Assembly (NCBI GenBank): GCA_018240595.1
Contig: JAFEFL010000010.1
Span: 42,877-106,876, forward strand
Source: Pseudomonadota bacterium
Lineage (GTDB): Bacteria > Pseudomonadota > Alphaproteobacteria > Rhizobiales > Xanthobacteraceae
Direction: 5' to 3'
Length of the DNA: 64,000 nt
Of the stretch, positions 9,355-21,327 are shown piece after piece; positions within the stretch are counted from its first letter, which is position 1, and each line of letters starts with the position of its first letter. The position numbers were made by a program, and so were the translations under genes. Below the pieces are notes generated by a model. The model saw only the letters and a list, made by a program, of their open reading frames with translations, was not told the DNA's origin and did not search any database.

Positions 9355-9482
9355 TCTCTCCTAAGTCATTGCCAGCCAGGTTCGTTCGAAGGCCCTGCGC
9401 CAAGGCGCGGCGGCGGCCGCGTGATCCGCCGGCGCGCGGCCTCCGTAATAGGGGCAGGTGTTGCCGCTGCAGGAGGGATGAC

Positions 9483-9905
9483 GTGGCGTTTTATGTGGTC
9501 ATCTACGTATTCGTCCTCGCCGTCTTCGTGATCCTGGACGGCATCTGGCTGTCGCAGATGGGGCAGGTGCTCTATCGCCCGGTGCTGGGCGACATCCTCG
9601 CCGACAACGTGCGGATCGTGCCGGCGGTCATCTTCTATCTGCTCTATCCGGTGGGCCTCGAGCTGTTCGCCGTCGTGCCGGCGCTGCGCGCCAGTTCCCT
9701 GCAGCATGCCGCGCTCTATGCGGCGCTGTTCGGCTTGTTCGCCTATGCGACCTATGACCTCACCAATTACGCGACCTTGCGCAACTGGTCGGCCGCGATC
9801 ACCGTGATCGATCTCATCTGGGGCGCTTTCGCCAGCGGCTTTGCGGCAGCGGCGGCTTATCTCCTGAGCCGCGCCGTCATGACGCATTTCGACATCAAGC
9901 TCTGA
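9483..9905 (+). CDS. DUF2177-family inner membrane protein
   Basis: 140 residues with about four membrane segments. It starts at GTG because AGGAGG lies at 9471-9476, six bases upstream; the nearby ATG codons are out of frame. Seen: the N-terminal FVILDGIWLSQMG and the central YATYDLTNYATLRNW, both characteristic of DUF2177. No biochemical role is established for the family, though members often sit near lipid-modification (CFA-type) genes, as here. It abuts the convergent methyltransferase gene with no spacing. Confidence 0.82.
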   Translation: MAFYVVIYVFVLAVFVILDGIWLSQMGQVLYRPVLGDILADNVRIVPAVIFYLLYPVGLELFAVVPALRASSLQHAALYAALFGLFAYATYDLTNYATLRNWSAAITVIDLIWGAFASGFAAAAAYLLSRAVMTHFDIKL

Positions 9906-10931
9906 TCACGCGGCTCTCAGCCGGTAGTGGCTGACGCCCCAGACCTCGCCGTCGTCGTAGCCGAACAGTCCTTCGGTCGCGAGGAAGAACAGGCGCCAGC
10001 GCCGCTGCCATAGCGCGGCATCCCTGCCATAGACCTCGGCCATGATCGCGCGGATCGCGCCGGCATTGTCGTCGAAGTTTTTCAGCCACAGCCGGGCCGT
10101 GTCGCGGTAATGCGTGCCGCTCCAGCGCCAGTCCTGCTCGACGGCGAGGATGTCGCCGAACTCGCGGATGAAATCGTGGCTCGGCATGATGCCGCCGGTG
10201 AAGAAGTGCTGGGCGATCCAGTCGGTCTTGTCGTTGTGGTCGAAGCGATAAGGCGCCCGGCTGTGCGTGAAGACGTGCATGAAGAAGCGCCCGTCTTCGG
10301 CAAGCCATGCGCGCACGCGCTCGAGCAGCCGCCGCCAGTTGACCATGTGCTCGAACATCTCGACCGAAACGATGCGGTCGAAACGGCGGTCCGGCGTGAA
10401 GCCGTTCATGTCGGCGGTGATCACGGTGAGATTGGTCAGGCCTCCCGCCCGCGCCCGGCCTTCGATGAATTCGCGTTGCGAGCGCGAATTGGACACGGCG
10501 ACGATGCGCGATCCCGGATAGTGCCGCGCCATCCACAGCGACAGCGAACCCCAGCCGCAGCCGAGCTCGAGGATCGACTGGCCGTCGGCGAGACCGGCAT
10601 GCGCGGCGGTCTCGGCCAGCGCCTGTTCCTCGGCGGCGGCGAGATCGTCACCCGGCGAGCGGAACAGGCAGCACGAATATTTGCGCTGCGGGCCGAGCAC
10701 GAGGTCGAAGAACGCGGCCGGCACTTCGTAATGCTGTGCATTGGCGTCATCGACATGTTCGGCGATCGGCAGCGCCGCGGTCGACAGGGCGAAAGCGCGG
10801 TTGGCGGCGTCGCCCTGGCTCGCCAGCTTGCGATGCGTGCGGCCGCATAGCGCCGCGATGCCGGCGCGCACCAAGGGATCGGGGATCGGCGTCGACTCGA
10901 TGAACTTCGTCGCGAGCGTGATGGCGCCCAT
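9906..10931 (-). CDS. SAM-dependent methyltransferase of the CFA synthase superfamily (candidate second methylase of furan fatty acid pathway)
   Basis: Start at MGAITLATK (341 aa) with GGGGAG six bases upstream; an ATG two codons earlier overlaps the upstream stop. Seen: HYEVPAAFF at about residue 75, the SAM-binding motif ILELGCGWGSLSLW, and SVEMFEHM. This HYE type is closer to coclaurine N-methyltransferase-like proteins than to classic CFA synthase. It is the last gene of the leftward sigma-chrR-hydrolase-DUF1295 operon. In Rhodopseudomonas palustris, FufM adds the second methyl group in dimethyl furan fatty acid synthesis. This gene or the one at 16192 could be that enzyme; sequence alone cannot decide. 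Confidence 0.85.
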   Translation of the reverse strand: MGAITLATKFIESTPIPDPLVRAGIAALCGRTHRKLASQGDAANRAFALSTAALPIAEHVDDANAQHYEVPAAFFDLVLGPQRKYSCCLFRSPGDDLAAAEEQALAETAAHAGLADGQSILELGCGWGSLSLWMARHYPGSRIVAVSNSRSQREFIEGRARAGGLTNLTVITADMNGFTPDRRFDRIVSVEMFEHMVNWRRLLERVRAWLAEDGRFFMHVFTHSRAPYRFDHNDKTDWIAQHFFTGGIMPSHDFIREFGDILAVEQDWRWSGTHYRDTARLWLKNFDDNAGAIRAIMAEVYGRDAALWQRRWRLFFLATEGLFGYDDGEVWGVSHYRLRAA

Positions 10932-10933
10932 GA

Positions 10934-11737
10934 TCATCTCCCCGGTGGTAGTGGAAAGAAGGCGCTGGTGCGCGCCTGGTAGTCGCGGAAGGCCGGTCCG
11001 CGCGAGCGCAGCATGTGCGCTTCCAGCGGCGGAATGCCGGAGACATAAACGAGAAGCCAGTACATGCAGGCCGGCGCCAGCAGCGCCAGCCAGCCCCAGC
11101 CGTAGGCGCCGGTGAGGTCGATGGCGAGCAGCGGATAAGCCAGCCAGCCGAGCCATTCGAAGAAATAGTTCGGATGCCGCGACAGCGACCACAGGCCGGT
11201 GTCGCAGACGCGGCCCTTGTTGTTCGGATCCTCCTTGAAGGCGCGCAACTGGCGATCGGCGACGCCTTCGCCGACGATGGCGGCCGCCATCACGACGAGC
11301 GCGGCGACGTCCTGAACGCGGAACAGCGGGGCAGGCTGATGCGCGGCGAGAAACACCGCCAGTGCCAGCGGAATCGTGACCCAGGCCTGCTTCTGCAGCA
11401 GCCAGAACATCTGGCGCGGCGCATCAGTGCCCCATTGCCGCGCCATCTCGGCGTAACGCGGATCGTCGGTGATGCCGGCGCTGCGCTGGGCGATGTGCAG
11501 ACCAAGGCGGCTCGCCCAGATCGCGATCATCAGCGCGGCAACGATCTGCCGCGATCCGATCGCATGAAACGGCGCCAGCGCGCTCGCCAGTCCCACGGCG
11601 CCGAGGCCGAAGGTCCAGATCGTATCGACCCAGCCGGAATTTCCGCTGCGTTGCTGCACCAGCCAGGCGCCGGCCATAATCGCCGATAGAGCCACCGCGA
11701 TCGACAACAGCGCGATGAGGAACTGCGCCGCGGTCAT
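10934..11737 (-). CDS. DUF1295 membrane protein (steroid-reductase / isoprenylcysteine methyltransferase-like fold)
   Basis: 267 residues with several membrane segments, and the family motif LWSLSRHPNYFFEWLGW at about residues 185-201. This region binds a nucleotide cofactor (NADPH or SAM) in related membrane reductases and methyltransferases. ATGA overlaps join it to the hydrolase upstream (11734-11737) and to the methyltransferase downstream. The position in an ECF-sigma operon with lipid-modifying enzymes suggests it acts on membrane lipids, perhaps as a reductase. That is an inference. Confidence 0.85.
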   Translation of the reverse strand: MTAAQFLIALLSIAVALSAIMAGAWLVQQRSGNSGWVDTIWTFGLGAVGLASALAPFHAIGSRQIVAALMIAIWASRLGLHIAQRSAGITDDPRYAEMARQWGTDAPRQMFWLLQKQAWVTIPLALAVFLAAHQPAPLFRVQDVAALVVMAAAIVGEGVADRQLRAFKEDPNNKGRVCDTGLWSLSRHPNYFFEWLGWLAYPLLAIDLTGAYGWGWLALLAPACMYWLLVYVSGIPPLEAHMLRSRGPAFRDYQARTSAFFPLPPGR

Positions 11738-12630
11738 GGCTTCGCCGTCCCGCGTGGATTGCGCGCGAAGGCCGCGACCTCGGTGAAGACCGGGGCGAGG
11801 AAGCGAAGCAGCGGCGAGAAGGCGCCGATCAGGCCGAGATGACCGATCCGGGCATAATGCCGTTCCGTCACGGCGCCGCGCAGGCTGCGAATATGCGCGG
11901 CGAGGCGCGTGGTGTTGCCGGGGCTGACGACCTTGTCGCGGCCGGGCGCGATCAGCAGGCTCGGCGGCGCGGCGTCGCCGACATAGCGGATCGGTTGTGT
12001 GTCGATGCGATCGGAACCGCCGAAGATGTCCTGCAGCACCGGATCGACAATGGGCAGGAAATCGTAGGGACCGGCAAGACCCACGAAACCGGCAATATCG
12101 CTCCGTGGATTGAGACCGACGCCGGCGAGCCAGCGTCCGTCGAACGCCAGCATCGCGGCGATATAGGCGCCGGCCGAATGGCCCATCGCCACGATGTGCG
12201 CCGGATTGGCGTTCCACCGTGCCGCATTGTCGCGAATGAAACGTGTCGCCTTGGCGGCGTCCTCGAGGAATTCCGGATAGCGCGCCTGCGGATAGACGCC
12301 GTAATCGGGAACGACCGTGACGATGCCCTGCGCGGCGAGCGATGCGCCGACAAAGCGGTAGATGTCGCGCGCGCCGCTCTGCCAGCTGCCGCCGTAGAAG
12401 AACACAACAGTCGGCGCCGGCGCTTGCGGCTGATCGGCCGGCGCGTAGACATCGAGCAGGCCGCGCGGGCCGGCGCGATAGGGAATGTCGGCGTGGAGCT
12501 GCCAGCCGCGGCGAGGTTGCAGGGCGTTGAGGAGGTCCGCGGCCGAGAAGCCGCGCGCAGCCCAGCGCTGCAAAATTCCGGCGCGCGGCGTCATCGATGC
12601 GGACGTCGTATCGATGATGGGCTGGCCCAA
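11734..12630 (-). CDS. Alpha/beta hydrolase, carboxylesterase/lipase type
   Basis: 298 residues, apparently cytoplasmic. The oxyanion-hole region reads VVFFYGGSWQSG (about residue 75), the nucleophile elbow MGHSAGAY (Ser about 152), the acid is in APGRDKVV and the histidine in GHLGLIG. The pattern is that of BD-FAE/kynurenine-formamidase-like esterases (HGGxW variant). The gene follows the anti-sigma gene by 10 bases and overlaps the DUF1295 gene, so it belongs to the ECF operon. Release of modified acyl chains from lipid would fit, but the substrate is unknown. Confidence 0.85.
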   Translation of the reverse strand: MGQPIIDTTSASMTPRAGILQRWAARGFSAADLLNALQPRRGWQLHADIPYRAGPRGLLDVYAPADQPQAPAPTVVFFYGGSWQSGARDIYRFVGASLAAQGIVTVVPDYGVYPQARYPEFLEDAAKATRFIRDNAARWNANPAHIVAMGHSAGAYIAAMLAFDGRWLAGVGLNPRSDIAGFVGLAGPYDFLPIVDPVLQDIFGGSDRIDTQPIRYVGDAAPPSLLIAPGRDKVVSPGNTTRLAAHIRSLRGAVTERHYARIGHLGLIGAFSPLLRFLAPVFTEVAAFARNPRGTAKP

Positions 12631-12640
12631 GGCGCTCCTC

Positions 12641-13276
12641 TCACAGCCGAACGAAGGGATTGAGCAGCGCGCCGATGAAACCGCTCAGTTTGAGCTGGCC
12701 TTCGAGCGCGACGAGGCAGATGCAGGCCATGTCCGTGCCGACGATCGGACGATGCTCGACATCGCCGTCGGCTTCCTCGAAGTCCCCGGCAAAGAAATCG
12801 CCGCCCTCGTGATGGAAGGATCCGACAAGAATGGAAGTCAGTTCGCTTCCCTCATGCGTGTGCTGTGGCAACCGGGTGCCCGGACCGGCCTTCAGAAGGA
12901 AGACGCGGACATTGCCGGACTCCGGCAGAAGAATAGGGCGCATCTCGACGCCCGGGCCGACCCAGCGCCAGCGCCCCATTTCGTACGGCTTGAGGCAAGC
13001 GGGCAAACCCGGCTCGTTGGCCACCGGTTTTGCGGGCTGCCGGGAATGCTCTCGGTCAATCCGGGCCAGCGTGCGCGCGAGGGCATGCTCAGACATTGGC
13101 GCCGGCGACAGGTCCTCGAGCATGACGCCGCCGACCTGCTCGGCGCCACGCACGAAGCGACGGCATGCGGCGCAACGTTCGAGGTGACTTGCAACGACGA
13201 CGCGCCGCCCGAGATCGAGCGTTCCTGCGGCATAGGCCGCGAGCGTTTCGTCAGAGGGGTGATGACGAATCGTCAT
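12641..13276 (-). CDS. chrR: ChrR-type zinc anti-sigma factor with cupin domain
   Basis: 211 residues. The N-terminal zinc anti-sigma domain shows His-rich IRHHPSDETL and the HLERCAACRRF motif, which together give a His/Cys zinc site. The C-terminal cupin domain carries PQHTHEGSELTS with its metal-binding histidines and a matching glutamate. In Rhodobacter sphaeroides ChrR holds RpoE inactive until singlet oxygen triggers its proteolysis. The start overlaps the stop of the sigma gene (ATGA, 13273-13276), the standard arrangement. High confidence in the family, good confidence in the signal by analogy. Confidence 0.93.
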   Translation of the reverse strand: MTIRHHPSDETLAAYAAGTLDLGRRVVVASHLERCAACRRFVRGAEQVGGVMLEDLSPAPMSEHALARTLARIDREHSRQPAKPVANEPGLPACLKPYEMGRWRWVGPGVEMRPILLPESGNVRVFLLKAGPGTRLPQHTHEGSELTSILVGSFHHEGGDFFAGDFEEADGDVEHRPIVGTDMACICLVALEGQLKLSGFIGALLNPFVRL

Positions 13277-13836
13277 GACAGGTCCCCCACGAGATCGCGC
13301 AGTTTCGCCATGGCGATCCTGATGCGGGATTTCACCGTTCCCAGGGGAATGCCGAGCGTCTGCGCGATCTCGGCATGCGGCTGATCTTCGAAGAAGGACA
13401 GTTCAATCACCTTGATCTGCTCGGGCGGTAGTTGCCGCAATGCATGTCTGACACGTTCGCCACGCTCTGCTTCCGACAGGCTCTCGTCGGGCGCCGCGGC
13501 TTCGTCGATCGCATCCGGCAGGTCGTCGCCGACCGGTACGTCGCGCCACTCCTTACGGAAGCGATCGGTCCGCAGATTGCGTGCGATCGTAAAAATCCAC
13601 GTTGCAGCCGTTGCCCGCGCCGCATCGAAGGTTTCGGCCTTGCGCCAGACGGCGAGCAGGGCTTCCTGCGCCAGTTCATCCGCCAGTCCTTCGTCGGCGC
13701 CGGCGCGCAGCAGATAGGCTTTGATGCGCGGGGCGAAGTGATCGAACAAAGCGCCGAACGCCGCGCGGTCCCGCTGGCGCGCGACCGCCACGATCATTTG
13801 CGAATAATCAAGCGTTGCCAACGGTTTACCGTCCAT
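13273..13836 (-). CDS. rpoE: ECF sigma factor, RpoE/ECF11 type, partner of ChrR
   Basis: Sigma-70 family extracytoplasmic-function factor. Region 2 reads FDHFAPRIKAYLLRAGADE to TFDAARATAATWIFTIARN, and region 4 has LPPEQIKVIELSFFED and the helix-turn-helix HAEIAQTLGIPLGTVKSRI. Start at MDGKPLATL gives 187 aa, the normal ECF size. An alternative ATG at 13932 has a better ribosome site but would lie only a few bases after the predicted transcription start of the sigma promoter at 13941-13967. Expected role: transcribe both arms of the surrounding locus, including its own gene, upon singlet oxygen stress. Confidence 0.92.
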   Translation of the reverse strand: MDGKPLATLDYSQMIVAVARQRDRAAFGALFDHFAPRIKAYLLRAGADEGLADELAQEALLAVWRKAETFDAARATAATWIFTIARNLRTDRFRKEWRDVPVGDDLPDAIDEAAAPDESLSEAERGERVRHALRQLPPEQIKVIELSFFEDQPHAEIAQTLGIPLGTVKSRIRIAMAKLRDLVGDLS

Positions 13837-13940
13837 TGCCGCATCCGTCAGCCGCGCCCGCGCCGGCCGCAGCGACGGTGCCAGGGTTCGAAAGTTGCGG
13901 GCCGTGGGGGAGGCAAGCCGGAGCGCGCTCATATGACCCC

Positions 13941-13967
13941 CTACGGCCGAACGCTGATTTTGGATCA
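13941..13967 (-). promoter_or_regulatory. Predicted RpoE (ECF11) promoter for the leftward sigma-chrR operon
   Basis: Minus-strand TGATCC at 13967-13962, 18 bases, then TA at 13943-13942. TGATCC is the -35 element known for the R. sphaeroides RpoE/ChrR regulon (from memory). The predicted transcript start is near 13935. Confidence 0.7.
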
Positions 13968-13978
13968 CGCCGGGGCAG

Positions 13979-14008
13979 TGATCCAAGCCCGCTCCTGACG
14001 CGTACCTC
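13979..14008 (+). promoter_or_regulatory. Predicted RpoE (ECF11) promoter for the rightward flavoprotein operon
   Basis: TGATCC at 13979-13984, 18 bases, then TACCTC at 14003. It has the same -35 element and spacing as the divergent copy, with the two -35 elements 11 bases apart. The predicted start near 14011 leaves about 50 bases of leader before the flavoprotein ATG. Confidence 0.7.
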
Positions 14009-14060
14009 CAGAACACGCAACCGGGGTTCCCGCAGCGGCGGAGCGAGGACGGAGAGTGCC

Positions 14061-15392
14061 ATGACCGGTGAACCTCGATTGAAAATCGCCGTGATCGGGA
14101 CCGGCATCTCCGGTATGTCGGCGGCCTGGCTCCTGAACCTCGGTCATGAAGTGACTGTGTATGAACGGGCGGGGCGGCCGGGCGGCCATTCCAATACGGT
14201 CGATGCTTCAGGCATTCCAGTCGATACGGGGTTCATTGTCTATAACCCTCTCAATTACCCCAACCTGGCGGCGCTGTTCGACCATCTCGGCGTGCCGACC
14301 AAACCGTCGGACATGTCGTTCGGCGTCTCGCTAGACGCCGGCGATCTGGAATATTCCGGCAGCGATCTTGCCGGCCTGTTCGCGCAGAAGCGCAACCTGC
14401 TGCGGCCGCGCTTCCTGTCGATGCTGCGCGACCTGACGCGCTTCTATCGCGACGCGCCGGCCGCTGCGGCCGCGCTGGCCGATCCGGCCATTACGCTCGG
14501 CGACTATCTGCGTCAGGGCGGTTACGGCGAAGCCTTCTGCCGCGATCACCTTCTGCCGATGGCCGCGGCGATCTGGTCGGCGCCGCCGCAACAGATGCTC
14601 GATTATCCGGCCGCAGCCTTCATTCGCTTTCATGCCAATCACGGCCTCTTGCAGATCGCGGACCGCCCCGAATGGCGCACCGTGGATGGCGGCAGCAAGG
14701 TCTATGTAAAAAAACTGACCGCAGGGTTTGCCGACCGTATCCGGCTCGATTGCGGTGCGGTGTCGGTACGCCGCAGTACGGGCGGCGTGCTTGTGCGCGA
14801 CGGCAAGGGCAGGGTCGAACGTTTCGATCACGTCGTGCTGGCCTCGCACGCCGATCAGTCGCTGGGGTTGCTCGAGGATGCCGACGAGACCGAGCGCCGC
14901 CTGCTCGGTGCGTTCCGCTATAGCCATAATCTTGCAGTCCTGCACACCGATGCGCGCTTCATGCCGAAGCGGCGCGCGGCCTGGTCGAGCTGGAATTTCA
15001 TCGGCGATCGCAGCAGCGATGCCGGCGTCTGCGTGACCTATTGGATGAACCGGCTGCAGTCTCTCGCCGCAGCGCCGGACATGTTCGTTACGCTCAATCC
15101 GCCCGAGCCGCCGCACGCCGGCACGCTGCTGCACAGTGAGGTGTATGAGCACCCGATGTTCGACACTGCGGCAATCCGCGCGCAATCGGAGCTTTGGTCG
15201 CTGCAGGGGCGAGGCAACACGTGGTTCTGCGGCGCCTATTTCGGCGCCGGTTTCCACGAGGATGGTCTGCAGGCGGGGCTCGCGGTCGCCGAAGCTCTCG
15301 GCGGCGTACGCCGGCCCTGGCGTGTCGCCAACGAGTCCGGCCGCATCCATCTGCCGTCGCGATGCGCACCGAACGCCGCGGAGATGGCGTAA
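14061..15392 (+). CDS. FAD-dependent oxidoreductase, amine-oxidase fold, of the ECF/ChrR lipid locus (UfaD/UfaO-type candidate)
   Basis: 443 residues. The dinucleotide-binding N-terminus IAVIGTGISGMSAAWLL is followed by YERAGRPGGHSNT, the typical FAD contact of the amine oxidase/phytoene desaturase fold. A late FAD-binding segment reads WFCGAYFGAGFHEDGLQAG. Start at the ATG after GGACGGAGAGTGCC. It opens the rightward operon with the DUF1365 and CFA-type genes, joined by overlapping stop and start codons. The same trio occurs in the singlet oxygen regulon of R. sphaeroides, where such flavoproteins act on methylated acyl chains of phospholipids. Whether this one is the desaturase or the oxygen-inserting enzyme is not decided here. 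Confidence 0.88.
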   Translation: MTGEPRLKIAVIGTGISGMSAAWLLNLGHEVTVYERAGRPGGHSNTVDASGIPVDTGFIVYNPLNYPNLAALFDHLGVPTKPSDMSFGVSLDAGDLEYSGSDLAGLFAQKRNLLRPRFLSMLRDLTRFYRDAPAAAAALADPAITLGDYLRQGGYGEAFCRDHLLPMAAAIWSAPPQQMLDYPAAAFIRFHANHGLLQIADRPEWRTVDGGSKVYVKKLTAGFADRIRLDCGAVSVRRSTGGVLVRDGKGRVERFDHVVLASHADQSLGLLEDADETERRLLGAFRYSHNLAVLHTDARFMPKRRAAWSSWNFIGDRSSDAGVCVTYWMNRLQSLAAAPDMFVTLNPPEPPHAGTLLHSEVYEHPMFDTAAIRAQSELWSLQGRGNTWFCGAYFGAGFHEDGLQAGLAVAEALGGVRRPWRVANESGRIHLPSRCAPNAAEMA

Positions 15393-16195
15393 TGACGTCC
15401 ACCCAGCCTTTACGGTCGGCACTCTATCTCGGCTCGGTGATGCACCGGCGGTTGTCGCCGCGCCGCCATCGCCTGCGCTATCGCGCTTTCTGGATGCTGA
15501 TCGACCTCGACGAAACCGGCGCGCTGAGCGAGCGCCTCGCGCTGTTCTCGCGCAATCGCTTCAACTTATTCAGCTTCCATGACGCCGATCACGGCGATGG
15601 AGGGCCCGCATCGCTACGAGCCTATGTCGACCGCACACTGTCGGAGCATAATGTGGATTGTCGCGGCGGCCGCATTGCATTGCTCTGCATGCCGCGCATT
15701 CTCGGCTACGTGTTCAACCCGCTCAGCATCTATTTCTGCCATCGCGCCGACGGTTCGCTCGCGGCCCTGCTCTACGAAGTGCGTAACACTTTCGGTGAAA
15801 TGCATAGCTATTTGTTGCCGGTGTCCGGTGACGCGCCGCTGGTGCATCAGCATTGCGCCAAGGAATTCTATGTCTCGCCATTCCTCGGCATGGATATGAC
15901 CTATGACTTCCGCGTCGCGCCGCCCGGCGAGCGCATTTCCGTGGTCGTGGCCGCCGACGACAAGCGCGGCCCCGTGCTGGTCGCCTCGCTGAGCGGGGAG
16001 CGCCGGGCACTGACTGACAGGGCGCTGGCCGCGATCTTCGTCAGCCTGCCGCTGATGACGCTGAAGGTGATGGCGGCGATTCATTGGGAAGCGCTGAAAA
16101 TCTGGTGGAAAGGCATGCGGCTTTATCCGCGGCCGCCGGCGCCGCGACAGGCGGTCACGGCGGGGCCGGTTCCAGGGGGCGGGGATAGACGATGA
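15392..16195 (+). CDS. DUF1365 family protein of the lipid-modification operon
   Basis: 267 residues. The DUF1365 hallmarks are present: LYLGSVMHRRLSPRRHRLRY at the start, then LLCMPRILGYVFNPLSIYFC and LYEVRNTFGEMHSYLL, and later CAKEFYVSPFLGMDM. The start overlaps the flavoprotein stop (TAATG), and its stop overlaps the next start (ATGA). The family has no solved mechanism but always travels with CFA-type methyltransferases and this flavoprotein. In R. sphaeroides the homologous gene pair is needed for furan fatty acids and for ChrR turnover. It is a candidate for the oxygen-dependent ring-forming step or its partner. Confidence 0.9.
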   Translation: MTSTQPLRSALYLGSVMHRRLSPRRHRLRYRAFWMLIDLDETGALSERLALFSRNRFNLFSFHDADHGDGGPASLRAYVDRTLSEHNVDCRGGRIALLCMPRILGYVFNPLSIYFCHRADGSLAALLYEVRNTFGEMHSYLLPVSGDAPLVHQHCAKEFYVSPFLGMDMTYDFRVAPPGERISVVVAADDKRGPVLVASLSGERRALTDRALAAIFVSLPLMTLKVMAAIHWEALKIWWKGMRLYPRPPAPRQAVTAGPVPGGGDRR

Positions 16196-17397
16196 GCTCT
16201 TTCGATGCTGCCGATCCTGTAGTGGCCGCGCCGCGGTTCGCGGGGCGCCTGGTTCGTGCGCTGGCGCCGCGGATCTCGTTCGGTTCGCTCCGGGTGGTCA
16301 CGCCCGCCGGCGAGCGCGTCGATTTGCGCGGGCCGCTCGCCGGGCCGGAAGCGGTGCTGGTGCTCAATCGCTGGCGCGGGCTTTGGCGTCTCATCCGGGG
16401 CGGCGAAATCGGCTTTGCCGAGGCCTTCATCGAAGGCGACTGGACGTCGCCCGATCTGACGCGCCTTCTGGAATGGGCGCTGCGCAATGAGCAAGCATCG
16501 GGCACCTATCGTGGGCACATCGGAGCCCGGCTCATGCGTCGCCTCGCGCACGGTTTGCGCGCCAACACCAGGAAGGGCAGCCGCCGCAACATCGCGGCGC
16601 ATTACGATCTCGGCAACGACTTCTATAGGCTTTGGCTCGACGACAGCATGAGCTATTCGTCCGCGCTCTATGCGGCGGCGGATGAGACGCTGGAGCAGGC
16701 GCAGCAGCGCAAGCTCGATCGCATCGTCGCCTTGCTCGACAATCCTGACGGTACGAGCGTGCTGGAGATCGGCTTCGGCTGGGGCGGCGTGCTGGAACGG
16801 CTGATCGGCGCGCATCGCTGCCGCATGACCGGCCTGACCCTGTCGACCGAGCAACTCGCCTTCTCGAAGGCCCGGCTCGGACGGCTCGGCCTGTCCGATG
16901 CGGCGGATTTGCGGCTGCAAGACTATCGCGATGTCGAGGGCCCATTCGATCGCATCGTGTCGATCGAAATGCTGGAGGCGGTCGGTGAGCGGTACTGGCC
17001 GGTCTATTTCGATAAACTTCGCGCCAGTCTGAAGCCGGGTGGCACCTGCGTGCTGCAGGTCATTACGATCGATGAAAGCCGGTTCGCCGATTACCGCGCC
17101 AATCCCGATTTCATCCAGGCCTATATTTTCCCGGGCGGGATGCTGCCGACCAAATCGGCGGTGCGGGAGGCGGCGACGGCCGCCGGGTTCACCCTCGGCA
17201 CCGAGCAAACCTTCGGCCTGTCCTACGCCCGCACGTTGCGCGAATGGCGGGAGCGCTTCCTCGCCGGCGGCCGCGATATCGCGGCGCTCGGTCTCGACGA
17301 GCGCTTCCGCCGCATGTGGGAGTATTACCTCGCCTATTGCGAGGCGGGCTTCCTGTGCGGCTCGGTCGATGTGAGCCTGTTCCAGTTGCGCGGCTGA
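16192..17397 (+). CDS. Cyclopropane-fatty-acyl-phospholipid synthase-type methyltransferase (UfaM-type candidate)
   Basis: 401 residues with the full CFA synthase layout: an N-terminal lipid-binding domain, then HYDLGNDFYRLWLDDSMSYS, the SAM motif VLEIGFGWGGVLERL, SIEMLEAVGERYW and QAYIFPGGMLP. Known chemistry of the superfamily is methyl transfer from SAM to a double bond of a membrane phospholipid acyl chain. Some members make a cyclopropane ring; UfaM leaves an 11-methyl trans-olefin. Association with the flavoprotein and DUF1365 argues for the UfaM role here. It is coupled by ATGA to the preceding gene and converges on the carbonic anhydrase. Confidence 0.9.
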   Translation: MSSFDAADPVVAAPRFAGRLVRALAPRISFGSLRVVTPAGERVDLRGPLAGPEAVLVLNRWRGLWRLIRGGEIGFAEAFIEGDWTSPDLTRLLEWALRNEQASGTYRGHIGARLMRRLAHGLRANTRKGSRRNIAAHYDLGNDFYRLWLDDSMSYSSALYAAADETLEQAQQRKLDRIVALLDNPDGTSVLEIGFGWGGVLERLIGAHRCRMTGLTLSTEQLAFSKARLGRLGLSDAADLRLQDYRDVEGPFDRIVSIEMLEAVGERYWPVYFDKLRASLKPGGTCVLQVITIDESRFADYRANPDFIQAYIFPGGMLPTKSAVREAATAAGFTLGTEQTFGLSYARTLREWRERFLAGGRDIAALGLDERFRRMWEYYLAYCEAGFLCGSVDVSLFQLRG

Positions 17398-17488: not shown

Positions 17489-18193
17489 CTATCCCTGCCT
17501 GGCCTCGAAGGCGGCGAGGGCATGTTGGCGCATGCCGCTGACCGGCTCGGCCGGCTGCCGCGCGCGCTCGTCGATGCTGATCAACGCATCGCGCTCCTTA
17601 AGCGATGACAGATGCGGGCCGAGGTCGCGCAGCAGGCCGTCGGTGACGCCATAGAGCCAGCCGTGCAGATGCAGTTTCTGGCCGCGGTTCCAGGCCTTCT
17701 CCACTGTCGGGATCGCGGCGATCCGGCGCACCTGCATCTCGACATTGAGTTCACACATGCGGTTGATGCGCGCTTCCGGATCGGCAATGGCGTCGAACAG
17801 GCCGCGGTGCTTGCGATACAGCATGGTGATCGGCTGCAGCCAGTGATCGACCAGCGCCGTACGCTCGTCGCCGAGCGCGCGCTGGATGCCGCCGCAGCCG
17901 TAATGGCCGCAGACGATCACGTGTTCGACATGCAGAATCTCGATGGCATATTCGAGCACCGAGAGCAGGTTCATGTCGCTGGTGTGCACCATGTTGGCGA
18001 TATTACGCTGGACGAACACCTCGCCGGGATCGAGGCCGAGCACGTCGTTGGCGGTGACGCGGCTGTCGGAGCAGCCGATCCACAACAGCTTCGGGTTCTG
18101 GATGCCGGCCATGCGCACGAAATAGCCGGGATCGTCGCGGGTCTTGGCCTGCGCCCAGGCGACGTTGCGATCGAACAGGTGTTCGAGGCACAT
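17489..18193 (-). CDS. can: Beta-class carbonic anhydrase
   Basis: Zinc enzyme interconverting CO2 and bicarbonate in the cytoplasm; 234 residues. Zinc ligands are seen in IGCSDSRV (Cys, and Asp-Arg dyad) and VCGHYGCGG (His and Cys). The motif QRNIANMV is typical of the class. The C-terminal extension is short. It lies 4 bases downstream of the DUF2478 gene and so appears to be the last gene of the nar operon, an unusual place for it. It could equally have its own promoter inside the operon. Confidence 0.93.
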   Translation of the reverse strand: MCLEHLFDRNVAWAQAKTRDDPGYFVRMAGIQNPKLLWIGCSDSRVTANDVLGLDPGEVFVQRNIANMVHTSDMNLLSVLEYAIEILHVEHVIVCGHYGCGGIQRALGDERTALVDHWLQPITMLYRKHRGLFDAIADPEARINRMCELNVEMQVRRIAAIPTVEKAWNRGQKLHLHGWLYGVTDGLLRDLGPHLSSLKERDALISIDERARQPAEPVSGMRQHALAAFEARQG

Positions 18194-19062: not shown

Positions 19063-19899
19063 TCAGTTCACGCGATGCTCGGCGGCGCCGGCGAGCGCAA
19101 TGCCTTCGATGGTCGCCGCCGACACCAGCCGGGCGATGTACTGCGCCTGGGCGCGGTGCATGACGGCCTCGCGCAGATAATCGGCGATGCGCCCGGCGAC
19201 GACTTCGAAGGGCAGGGTGCGGCCGTCGTGCTTGCGGGCGAGCTGGATGATGTGGAAGCCGTAACGGGTGGCCACAGGCGCGGCGCTGATGGCGCCGGGG
19301 GCCATCTGCGCGAGCGCGTCGGCGAATTCCGGCGTCACCTGATCGGCGGTGAGTTGGCCGAGATTGCCGCCTTGCGCGGCTGAGGGGCAGCGCGAATGGA
19401 CGCGCGCCAGATCGGCGAAGCTGTCCGGCTTGTCGCGCAAAGTCGCCAGCGCCGCTTCCGCGTCGGCTTGCGCCTGGGCATAGGCCGCCTCATCCGCCGG
19501 CAGCGCGGCGAACAGGATATGCGCCGCCTCATAGATGTCCGGCGAAGCGAAGCGCGCTGTGTTGTTCTCGTAGTAGCGCCGGCAGGTGGATTCATCGGGC
19601 TCGGGCAGGATGACCTCGCGCTCGACCACGGCGCGCATCAACGCTTCGTCGTCGGTCTCGGTGCGACCCTCTTCGGTACGCGGCTCGGGCTCGAGGCCGA
19701 GCGCCGCCGCGCGCTGCAGCAACAGCTCGCGCACGACCAGCGCCCGCGCCGCCAGTTGCCAGGCGGCGGCCGGCTTGTCGGCCGGATGGTGCTGAATTTC
19801 GCGCACGATGGTGTCGCGCGGGATGGTGATGCCGTTGACGCTGACATCGACCGGCCTGGCGCCGGTGGAGGGAAAGCGGACGTCGATGGAAACCGCCAT
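19063..19899 (-). CDS. Parvulin-type peptidyl-prolyl isomerase of the nar operon
   Basis: 278 residues from MAVSIDVRF, five bases after the narI stop. The N-terminal part is helical (SurA/NifM-like, with VNGITIPRDTIVREI). The C-terminal parvulin domain has AAHILFA, FADLARVHSRCPSAAQGGNLG and GFHIIQLARK. There is no signal peptide, so it should act in the cytoplasm, where NarGH is assembled. PPIases in this position occur in several proteobacterial nar operons and are thought to help NarGHI maturation. The catalytic pattern is seen; the client protein is inferred from context. Confidence 0.88.
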   Translation of the reverse strand: MAVSIDVRFPSTGARPVDVSVNGITIPRDTIVREIQHHPADKPAAAWQLAARALVVRELLLQRAAALGLEPEPRTEEGRTETDDEALMRAVVEREVILPEPDESTCRRYYENNTARFASPDIYEAAHILFAALPADEAAYAQAQADAEAALATLRDKPDSFADLARVHSRCPSAAQGGNLGQLTADQVTPEFADALAQMAPGAISAAPVATRYGFHIIQLARKHDGRTLPFEVVAGRIADYLREAVMHRAQAQYIARLVSAATIEGIALAGAAEHRVN

Positions 19900-19904
19900 G
19901 GCCG

Positions 19905-20609
19905 TCACTCCGCCGGAACCATCGGACGCCGCGTGCGCACCACCTGATAGCCGCGACGGCCGAGATACCAGACCGGCGCGCTCCAGATGTGGACGAGGCG
20001 CGTGAACGGGAACAGCAGGAAGATGGTCATGCCGAGGAACAGGTGCGCCTTGAAGATCGGGTGCACGTCGGCGATGACCGCCGAGACGCCCGGCTGGAGC
20101 GTGAGGATACCCTGCGCCCAGGTCATGAACTTCACCATTTCGTGGCCGTCGAGATGGCCGAGCGAGACGAAGATGGTGCTCAGGCCGAGAATGAGCTGGA
20201 CATAGAGGACGAGCAGGATGGCGATGTCGCCGAACGACGAGGTCGTACGGATGCGCGCGTCGAACAGGCGGCGGTGGATGAGCAGGGTCATGCCGACGAA
20301 GCAGGCAACGCCGGCGACGCCGCCGATCGAGATCGCCATCCACTGCTTGAAGGTGTGCGAGATGTGAAGCGTGTCGAACACCCAGATCGGCGTCAGCAAC
20401 CCGACGAAATGGCCGGCGAAGATCGCGAGAATGCCGACGTGGAACAGGTTCGACCCCCAGGTCAGTTGCCGGCGCCGCAGCAGTTGGCTGGAGCCGGATC
20501 GCCAAGTGTATTGCTCGCGGTCGAAGCGTACGAGCGAGCCGAGCAGGAACACGGTGAGGCAGAGGTAGGGATACCAGCCGAAGACGATGTAAGTGATGAG
20601 GTCGCGCAT
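19905..20609 (-). CDS. narI: Respiratory nitrate reductase gamma subunit (cytochrome b)
   Basis: Membrane anchor of NarGHI that takes electrons from quinol. 234 residues with five membrane segments from MRDLITYIVFGWYPY. The four haem-ligating histidines are visible in SNLFHVGILAIFAGHFVG and later in ADVHPIFKAHLF. Length fits NarI (about 225-240). The gene is 10 bases after narJ. High confidence. Confidence 0.97.
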   Translation of the reverse strand: MRDLITYIVFGWYPYLCLTVFLLGSLVRFDREQYTWRSGSSQLLRRRQLTWGSNLFHVGILAIFAGHFVGLLTPIWVFDTLHISHTFKQWMAISIGGVAGVACFVGMTLLIHRRLFDARIRTTSSFGDIAILLVLYVQLILGLSTIFVSLGHLDGHEMVKFMTWAQGILTLQPGVSAVIADVHPIFKAHLFLGMTIFLLFPFTRLVHIWSAPVWYLGRRGYQVVRTRRPMVPAE

Positions 20610-20619
20610 GGCTTCTTCC

Positions 20620-21327
20620 TTACTGGCGCTGCCGTTGCGGCATGTCGGGTGCGGGGCGCATGCCGCCGCGCACGCGGGCGATGATGCTGTCCTTGCAGTT
20701 GTCGCCGGCACCGGGCCCGAAATTGACCGGTTCGTCTTCCCAGGCGGCGTCGAGCGCCGCGAGGTCGTCGGCGTCGGGGTCCGGTAGCTGCAGCAGGGCG
20801 GAGACCTCCTCGTCCGTCGGCTTGGCCGCCGCGAGCGCTCCCAAGGCCCGGAACACCGCCTCGTAGGTCGACCGGCGCTTGCGCAAGCGTTCGGCGATGG
20901 CGGCGAAGATGTGCGCCGGCTGGCCGAGGCTTTCGGCCGCTTCGGCGCCAGGCCGCGTCGCCACATATTCAAGGAACAGCGGCAGGAAGTCCGGCAGCTC
21001 CGAGACATCCATAAAGAGGCCGGCCGCCTCGTATTGCGACTTGAGGTCGATCATGGCCTGGCCGCGGTCGCGGCTCTCGCCGTGCACGTGCTCGAACAGA
21101 TGCAGGGACAGCGAGCGTGTGCGATCGAACAGCAGAACGTAGCGCTCCTGCAGGTCGTAGAGATCGTTGCCCGCCAGTTCGTTGAGCAGCTTGTGCAGAT
21201 GGTCGCGCACCGACGCGGGAATTCGGCGGTCCTTGTCGAGCGCCTCGCTGATCTCGCCCGTGGCTTGCACGAGTTCGGCGGTGGGGTAGGTGAGCAGCGC
21301 CGACAGCGCCTTCAGGGTCCGGCTCAT
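20620..21327 (-). CDS. narJ: Nitrate reductase molybdenum cofactor assembly chaperone
   Basis: System-specific chaperone that holds apo-NarGH until the molybdenum cofactor and iron-sulfur clusters are in. It is not part of the final enzyme. 235 residues with the NarJ/TorD helical fold: ALLTYPTAELV at the start, LLFDRTRSLSLHLFEHVHGES and FLPLFLEYVA. The start codon overlaps the narH stop (TGATG), showing tight coupling. Length is normal. Confidence 0.96.
   Translation of the reverse strand: MSRTLKALSALLTYPTAELVQATGEISEALDKDRRIPASVRDHLHKLLNELAGNDLYDLQERYVLLFDRTRSLSLHLFEHVHGESRDRGQAMIDLKSQYEAAGLFMDVSELPDFLPLFLEYVATRPGAEAAESLGQPAHIFAAIAERLRKRRSTYEAVFRALGALAAAKPTDEEVSALLQLPDPDADDLAALDAAWEDEPVNFGPGAGDNCKDSIIARVRGGMRPAPDMPQRQRQ

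Follow-up and report, generated by a model that had tools for sequence, protein, structure and literature searches.

A divergent RpoE-ChrR locus in a Xanthobacteraceae bacterium unites relatives of four furan fatty acid enzymes with a predicted membrane reductase

The DNA considered here is a 64,000-nucleotide window, the whole stretch that we analysed, from a Pseudomonadota bacterium of the family Xanthobacteraceae (GCA_018240595.1, contig JAFEFL010000010.1). At one locus within it, relatives of the enzymes UfaM, UfaD, UfaO and FufM are encoded beside an RpoE-type sigma factor and its ChrR-type anti-sigma factor. This association argues that the locus very likely specifies a singlet-oxygen-regulated pathway that would convert phospholipid vaccenoyl chains to mono- and dimethyl furan fatty acids, and that a DUF1295 protein, a predicted NADPH reductase, would act on the chain either as the intact furan or after its oxidation. 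The products and induction of this pathway are what we infer, as are the reactions assigned to DUF1295, DUF2177 and a hydrolase of the same locus. The biochemistry of the four enzymes was established one gene at a time in the alphaproteobacteria Rhodobacter sphaeroides and Rhodopseudomonas palustris (PMC7380195): the monomethyl furan 9M5 is built on phospholipid chains by the joint action of UfaM, UfaD and UfaO, and a further methylation by FufM gives the dimethyl furan 9D5.

The locus consists of two divergent runs of tightly packed genes separated by a short intergenic stretch. The left arm, on the minus strand, runs from rpoE (13273..13836, an extracytoplasmic function (ECF) sigma factor with Sigma70_r2 and r4 domains) and chrR (12641..13276) through an alpha/beta hydrolase gene (11734..12630, a predicted esterase or lipase; BD-FAE 87.6 bits) and DUF1295 (10934..11737; 209.8 bits) to the FufM-type methyltransferase gene fufM (9906..10937). 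The right arm, on the plus strand, comprises ufaD (14061..15392, a FAD flavoprotein; Amino_oxidase 68.2 bits), ufaO (15392..16195, DUF1365; 281.1 bits) and ufaM (16192..17397). With start codons picked by hand from the open reading frame (ORF) list, neighbours within an arm overlap by 1–4 bases, the sole exception being a 10-base gap ahead of the hydrolase gene, for which a TTG start was chosen and an ATG at 12594 is possible. A reading of the DNA made earlier from sequence alone had named these eight genes, and all were found where it had placed them and on the same strands. Its picture of a two-armed locus governed by RpoE and ChrR held for the layout, and divergent promoter boxes precede both arms. 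However, the left arm starts at rpoE-chrR itself as one gene run, and a gene was missed: DUF2177 (9483..9905, plus strand; Pfam 143.4 bits), encoding a four-helix membrane protein, abuts fufM stop to stop and has its own promoter box, so the unit extends further left.

To place the two methyltransferases, we compared the enzymes with a single reference, R. palustris JSC-3b, represented by one scaffold (a single record rather than a whole genome, and not strain CGA009 of PMC7380195). The scaffold holds two matches to UfaM of this locus. One is 45% identical and adjoins the UfaO and UfaD genes (50% identity each, for UfaD over the 163 residues in reach). The other is 63% identical to the left methyltransferase (over 338 aa) and follows a DUF1295 gene that is 61% identical to the one here. 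We then built a tree from 80 FufM-type sequences, 82 that were called UfaM and the cyclopropane fatty acid (CFA) synthase of this genome. In it, all 80 FufM-type sequences formed one clade with a support of 1.0, which contains both the left methyltransferase and the JSC-3b gene, whereas the split between UfaM and CFA synthase had a low support of 0.38. A loop motif tells the types apart: EMFEHM in the left enzyme and its type (E and H in 80/80), GMFEHVG in the genome's own CFA synthase and EMxEAVG in the UfaM types (Ala in 81 of 82, His in one). The right-arm enzyme (CMAS 272.5 bits) reads EMLEAVGE, with Ala in the column of the FEHVG loop His of plain CFA synthases, and scored below the cut-offs of the NCBIfam CFA models. 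By sequence, then, the left enzyme (CMAS 133.8 bits) is FufM-type, in the same clade as and clearly closest to the JSC-3b gene, and the right enzyme is UfaM-like by motif and neighbours, so that orthologues of UfaM, UfaD and UfaO are encoded together. The grouping with unrelated methyltransferases or simple CFA synthase that would have undone the sequence-only reading was not seen.

The closest solved relatives of the left enzyme are plant alkaloid N-methyltransferases; for the FufM family, the best is coclaurine N-methyltransferase, with 265.6 bits compared with 127.8 for E. coli-type CFA synthase. This could indicate that the left enzyme methylates N or O atoms of small molecules, or is simply a CFA synthase, without a role in furan lipids. 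Yet FufM itself belongs to that family: its identity to Arabidopsis AT4G33110, now AtFUFM1, is 37.87% (PMC10940516, in excerpt), with which the coclaurine N-methyltransferase match agrees. Given also the 63% identity to the JSC-3b gene, and that 57 of the 80 loci retrieved with the left methyltransferase gene encode UfaO as well, we consider either activity highly improbable.

Regulation by RpoE and ChrR is suggested both by the proteins and by the promoter boxes. The anti-sigma factor scored 206.6 bits with TIGR02451, above the cut-off of 124.5 (a match to NF051881 was below its own cut-off), and has the zinc ligands of both ChrR domains (His5/6, His31, Cys35 and Cys38; His139, His141, Glu145 and His175), as listed in PMC6852236. 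It is encoded with its sigma factor, as in RpoE-ChrR (ECF11) pairs. The motif TGATCC-N18-TA, which we took to be of the RpoE type, was then tested by counting. Exact copies number 29 in the 4.9 Mb genome, compared with 5 for a reversed control, and three of the 29 fall within 4.6 kb at the locus: ahead of rpoE (13942..13967, minus strand), ahead of the flavoprotein gene (13979..14004, plus strand) and 35 bases ahead of the DUF2177 start (9422..9447, plus strand). This clustering is not chance. The −35 parts of the two central boxes form an inverted repeat. In related loci, a relaxed box (TGATC-N18/19-TA, at most 250 bases upstream) preceded rpoE in 31 of 43 genes, ufaD in 25 of 57 and DUF2177 in 13 of 55, whereas shuffles gave expected counts of 0.52, 0.82 and 0.44, respectively; it was found ahead of none of the 57 internal ufaO genes. 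Among genomes of the class that lack FufM, the box was just upstream of only one of six DUF2177 genes.

Several boxes were also seen elsewhere. In genome G005, DUF2177 is divergent from UfaD-UfaM with a box for each (L176), and RpoE-ChrR and UfaO lie in a separate locus (L138). Another exact box (L092, G000:C9:49255-49280) lies 35 bases ahead of an ORF that by eye resembles MsrP, a methionine sulfoxide reductase subunit and a possible further RpoE target. A third (L113, G000:C74:137076-137101) lies 8 bases ahead of an ORF that by eye resembles a Rieske 2Fe-2S protein; a Rieske protein is also included in Table 5 of a Chlamydomonas study (PMC4067076, in excerpt).

The gene families of the locus co-occur again in many alphaproteobacterial genomes. 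Scanning named genomes with the FufM family, we retained the best 80 of at least 578 stretches encoding a relative, which are therefore nearest relatives and not a census. Profiles detected DUF1295 in 68 of these 80 loci, UfaD in 58, UfaO in 57, DUF2177 in 56, RpoE in 44, UfaM in 38, ChrR in 36 and the hydrolase in 27, and all nine genes in 13. A cultured relative that carries the complete locus is Pseudolabrys sp. Root1462 (L010). In the subset with long flanks (n=58), DUF1295 was present in 51 loci and DUF2177 in 45. Wherever DUF1295 was present, it lay within 300 bases of FufM on the same strand (68/68). Several of the 12 loci without it are from Caulobacteraceae (L035, L069 and others), in which FufM and DUF2177 are consecutive on one strand, in some cases touching or overlapping.

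To view the pathway genes independently of FufM, we used DUF1365 matches in 115 genomes of the class (55 with a match) and fetched 52 loci. UfaD was near UfaO in 51 of them, FufM was present in 4, and DUF1295 and DUF2177 were each present in 3, only alongside FufM. Recurrent neighbours in the other 48 loci were SDR, MFS_2, DUF3833, DUF6134, SnoaL and photolyase genes. We therefore defined set A as MFS_2, DUF3833 or SnoaL and set B as FufM, DUF1295 or DUF2177; DUF6134 and photolyase were kept out because they turn up among the 80 FufM loci as well (in 11 and 3, respectively). Among 121 fetched UfaO loci, 73 had set B alone, 32 set A alone, none both and 16 neither, counts that go with sets defined after the neighbours had been seen, profiles built from the same loci and contig ends that hide genes. 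The 73 set-B loci contained FufM in 69, DUF1295 in 64, DUF2177 in 62 and the hydrolase in 29. As 69 of the 73 came from searches with FufM or set-B DUF1295, their number is by construction; this does not apply to the lack of set A in them. No pair among the loci were copies at 97% over 2 kb. SDR genes followed the same division: 24 of 32 set-A loci, versus 2 of 73 set-B loci, have one no more than 5 kb from the core. An SDR profile matched 12 of the 80 FufM loci anywhere, but among the 57 that also hold UfaO only 1 had the match at that distance. The comparison shows that the furan pathway is accompanied by either of two accessory sets, not seen together, of which the present locus has set B.

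Within set B, FufM is optional. Among 121 genomes of the order, 12 had FufM (E ≤ 1e-100) and 16 had DUF1295 of set B (300 bits or more), namely 11 of the 12 FufM genomes and five others; 12 further genomes had weaker DUF1295 matches only. In four of the five genomes without FufM, set-B DUF1295 lies within a UfaD-UfaO-UfaM/RpoE-ChrR locus, and in the fifth, DUF2177 is the sole partner beside it. One of the five, G191, belongs to the window's own family. DUF1295 is therefore independent of the dimethyl step. We had considered that DUF1295 and DUF2177 are tied to FufM alone, as none of the 48 UfaO loci without FufM had either, and dropped this idea because these five genomes keep set-B DUF1295. 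In the class sample, all 10 genomes with DUF2177 also had DUF1365, and full-length DUF1295 was present somewhere in 6/6 FufM genomes, in two of them (G053, G064) as the weaker type, compared with 7/109 others. Genome-wide Pfam counts of DUF1295 are misleading, since members of a generic RHPNYFG type are frequent elsewhere.

What, then, might DUF1295 do? Its predicted fold is shared with the SRD5A and sterol reductase superfamily, although it differs from SRD5A and delta-14 sterol reductase in sequence (10–14% identity over the aligned fold). It could instead be an S-adenosylmethionine-dependent methyltransferase of the ICMT or PEMT kind, acting on a lipid head group or carboxyl. We regard this as unlikely: Steroid_dh matched 58/58 DUF1295 sequences and was the stronger match (best 2.2e-9), and N190 is invariant (67/67) and E194 present in 60/67, an Asn plus acidic signature that has equivalents at that position in two SRD5A sequences and a sterol reductase but not in Ma-ICMT or AtTam46. 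We take these residues to bind NADPH. By predicted fold and signature, DUF1295 thus looks like a membrane NADPH reductase, in line with the reducing role that the sequence-only reading had proposed.

Such a reductase could also act inside the synthesis pathway; if, for instance, it reduced a methylated diene or alkene chain, intermediates would be drawn away from furan formation. Sterol reductases, which have this fold, reduce conjugated dienes. The product of UfaD is a conjugated diene (PMC7380195, in excerpt). However, in the same paper R. palustris UfaM, UfaD and UfaO were enough for R. sphaeroides to make 9M5, as was FufM for 9D5, and synthesis therefore needs no reductase; moreover, DUF1295 is absent near the core in set-A loci. 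We therefore find a place within synthesis conceivable but rather doubtful. The sequence-only reading was right to set the hydrolase and DUF1295 apart from the published pathway. The hydrolase has a GHSAG serine nucleophile motif, which together with D220 and H252 is kept in at least 95% of 27 relatives. DUF2177 gave a predicted structure with a pLDDT (predicted local distance difference test) of 96.3, and structure comparison returned no convincing fold match for the model.

Overall, our preferred reading is a regulated pathway followed by processing of its products. Singlet oxygen would lead to loss of ChrR and release of RpoE, which would transcribe both arms and DUF2177 from the three boxes. 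UfaM would methylate the 18:1 chain, UfaD introduce a second double bond and UfaO insert O2-derived oxygen to close the furan, to which FufM would add the second ring methyl. The methyl furans would then be consumed by singlet oxygen; in R. sphaeroides, 9M5 is rapidly lost upon singlet-oxygen exposure (PMC7380195, in excerpt), and furan membrane lipids are likely to scavenge singlet oxygen in the present bacterium as well. We place DUF1295, DUF2177 and the hydrolase after furan formation, where they may act on oxidised or spent chains, by analogy with RSP1087, RSP1088 and RSP1089, which are dispensable for furan synthesis in R. sphaeroides (PMC7380195, in excerpt).

A more speculative extension, which we think improbable, is that set B forms a renewable singlet-oxygen sink. 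Singlet oxygen would open the furan to a membrane-bound ene-dione, DUF1295 with NADPH would saturate this to a 1,4-diketone, and the diketone would reclose to the furan, possibly with the aid of DUF2177. A single chain could then quench many singlet oxygens; green algae would use the same module in their SAK1 response. The sequence from ene-dione through diketone back to furan is drawn from background chemistry.

Beyond the locus, a carbonic anhydrase gene (Pro_CA, 165.7 bits; 17489–18193) lies just past ufaM on the opposite strand. As the 80 FufM loci contained no such gene, it looks like a chance neighbour here. ORFs at 19063–21008 resemble, by eye, a peptidyl-prolyl isomerase and a respiratory nitrate reductase gamma subunit. 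No photosynthetic reaction-centre gene (PF00124) was found in the genome.

The locus thus places relatives of all four furan enzymes under one presumed singlet-oxygen switch and gives DUF1295 and DUF2177, two uncharacterised membrane families, a specific context. It also links them, by family name, to the singlet-oxygen response of green algae, in which they are listed only as DUFs, and makes the fate of furan lipids after oxidation a directly testable question.

Among known systems, R. palustris CGA009 has all four enzymes and an identical ufaD-ufaO-ufaM order (RPA2571-2569), but its fufM is elsewhere (RPA0924; PMC7380195, in excerpt), whereas here the four enzymes, rpoE-chrR, DUF1295, DUF2177 and the hydrolase share one locus. 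In R. palustris JSC-3b, as here, the FufM-type gene follows DUF1295, and RPA0923 is therefore probably a DUF1295 gene; an R. palustris strain without RPA0923 is among those listed in PMC7380195. R. sphaeroides has its ufaM elsewhere (RSP2144) and FufM is outside its pathway; RSP1087, RSP1088 and RSP1089 encode 245, 186 and 402 aa, respectively (PMC7380195, in excerpt). What its RpoE-ChrR regulon (RSP1091-1087 operon) has in common with the present locus is a ChrR-type anti-sigma factor, UfaD and UfaO genes and presumed singlet-oxygen control. The three protein lengths would presumably fit SDR, DUF3833 and MFS proteins, as in set A.

In Chlamydomonas, 104 genes require SAK1 for induction by singlet oxygen; CFA1, CFA2, DUF1365, DUF2177 and DUF1295 (Cre09.g401701) are among the first 25 of these 104 rows, and CFA2 is named coclaurine N-methyltransferase in another table (PMC4067076, in excerpt). 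The word furan is absent from the main text of that paper, and a 2021 review already ties algal CFA genes to bacterial furan lipids, as under study (PMC8491031, in excerpt). Our literature search, of partial coverage and mostly by titles, found no paper joining DUF1295 or DUF2177 to furan lipids. The algal set resembles the present locus by family name only, and differs in belonging to a eukaryote, with unlinked genes and another regulator. Finally, the mycobacterial sigK locus, in which we take DUF1295, a CFA-like methyltransferase, DUF1365 and a flavoprotein to be encoded beside an ECF sigma factor, may be a distant parallel.

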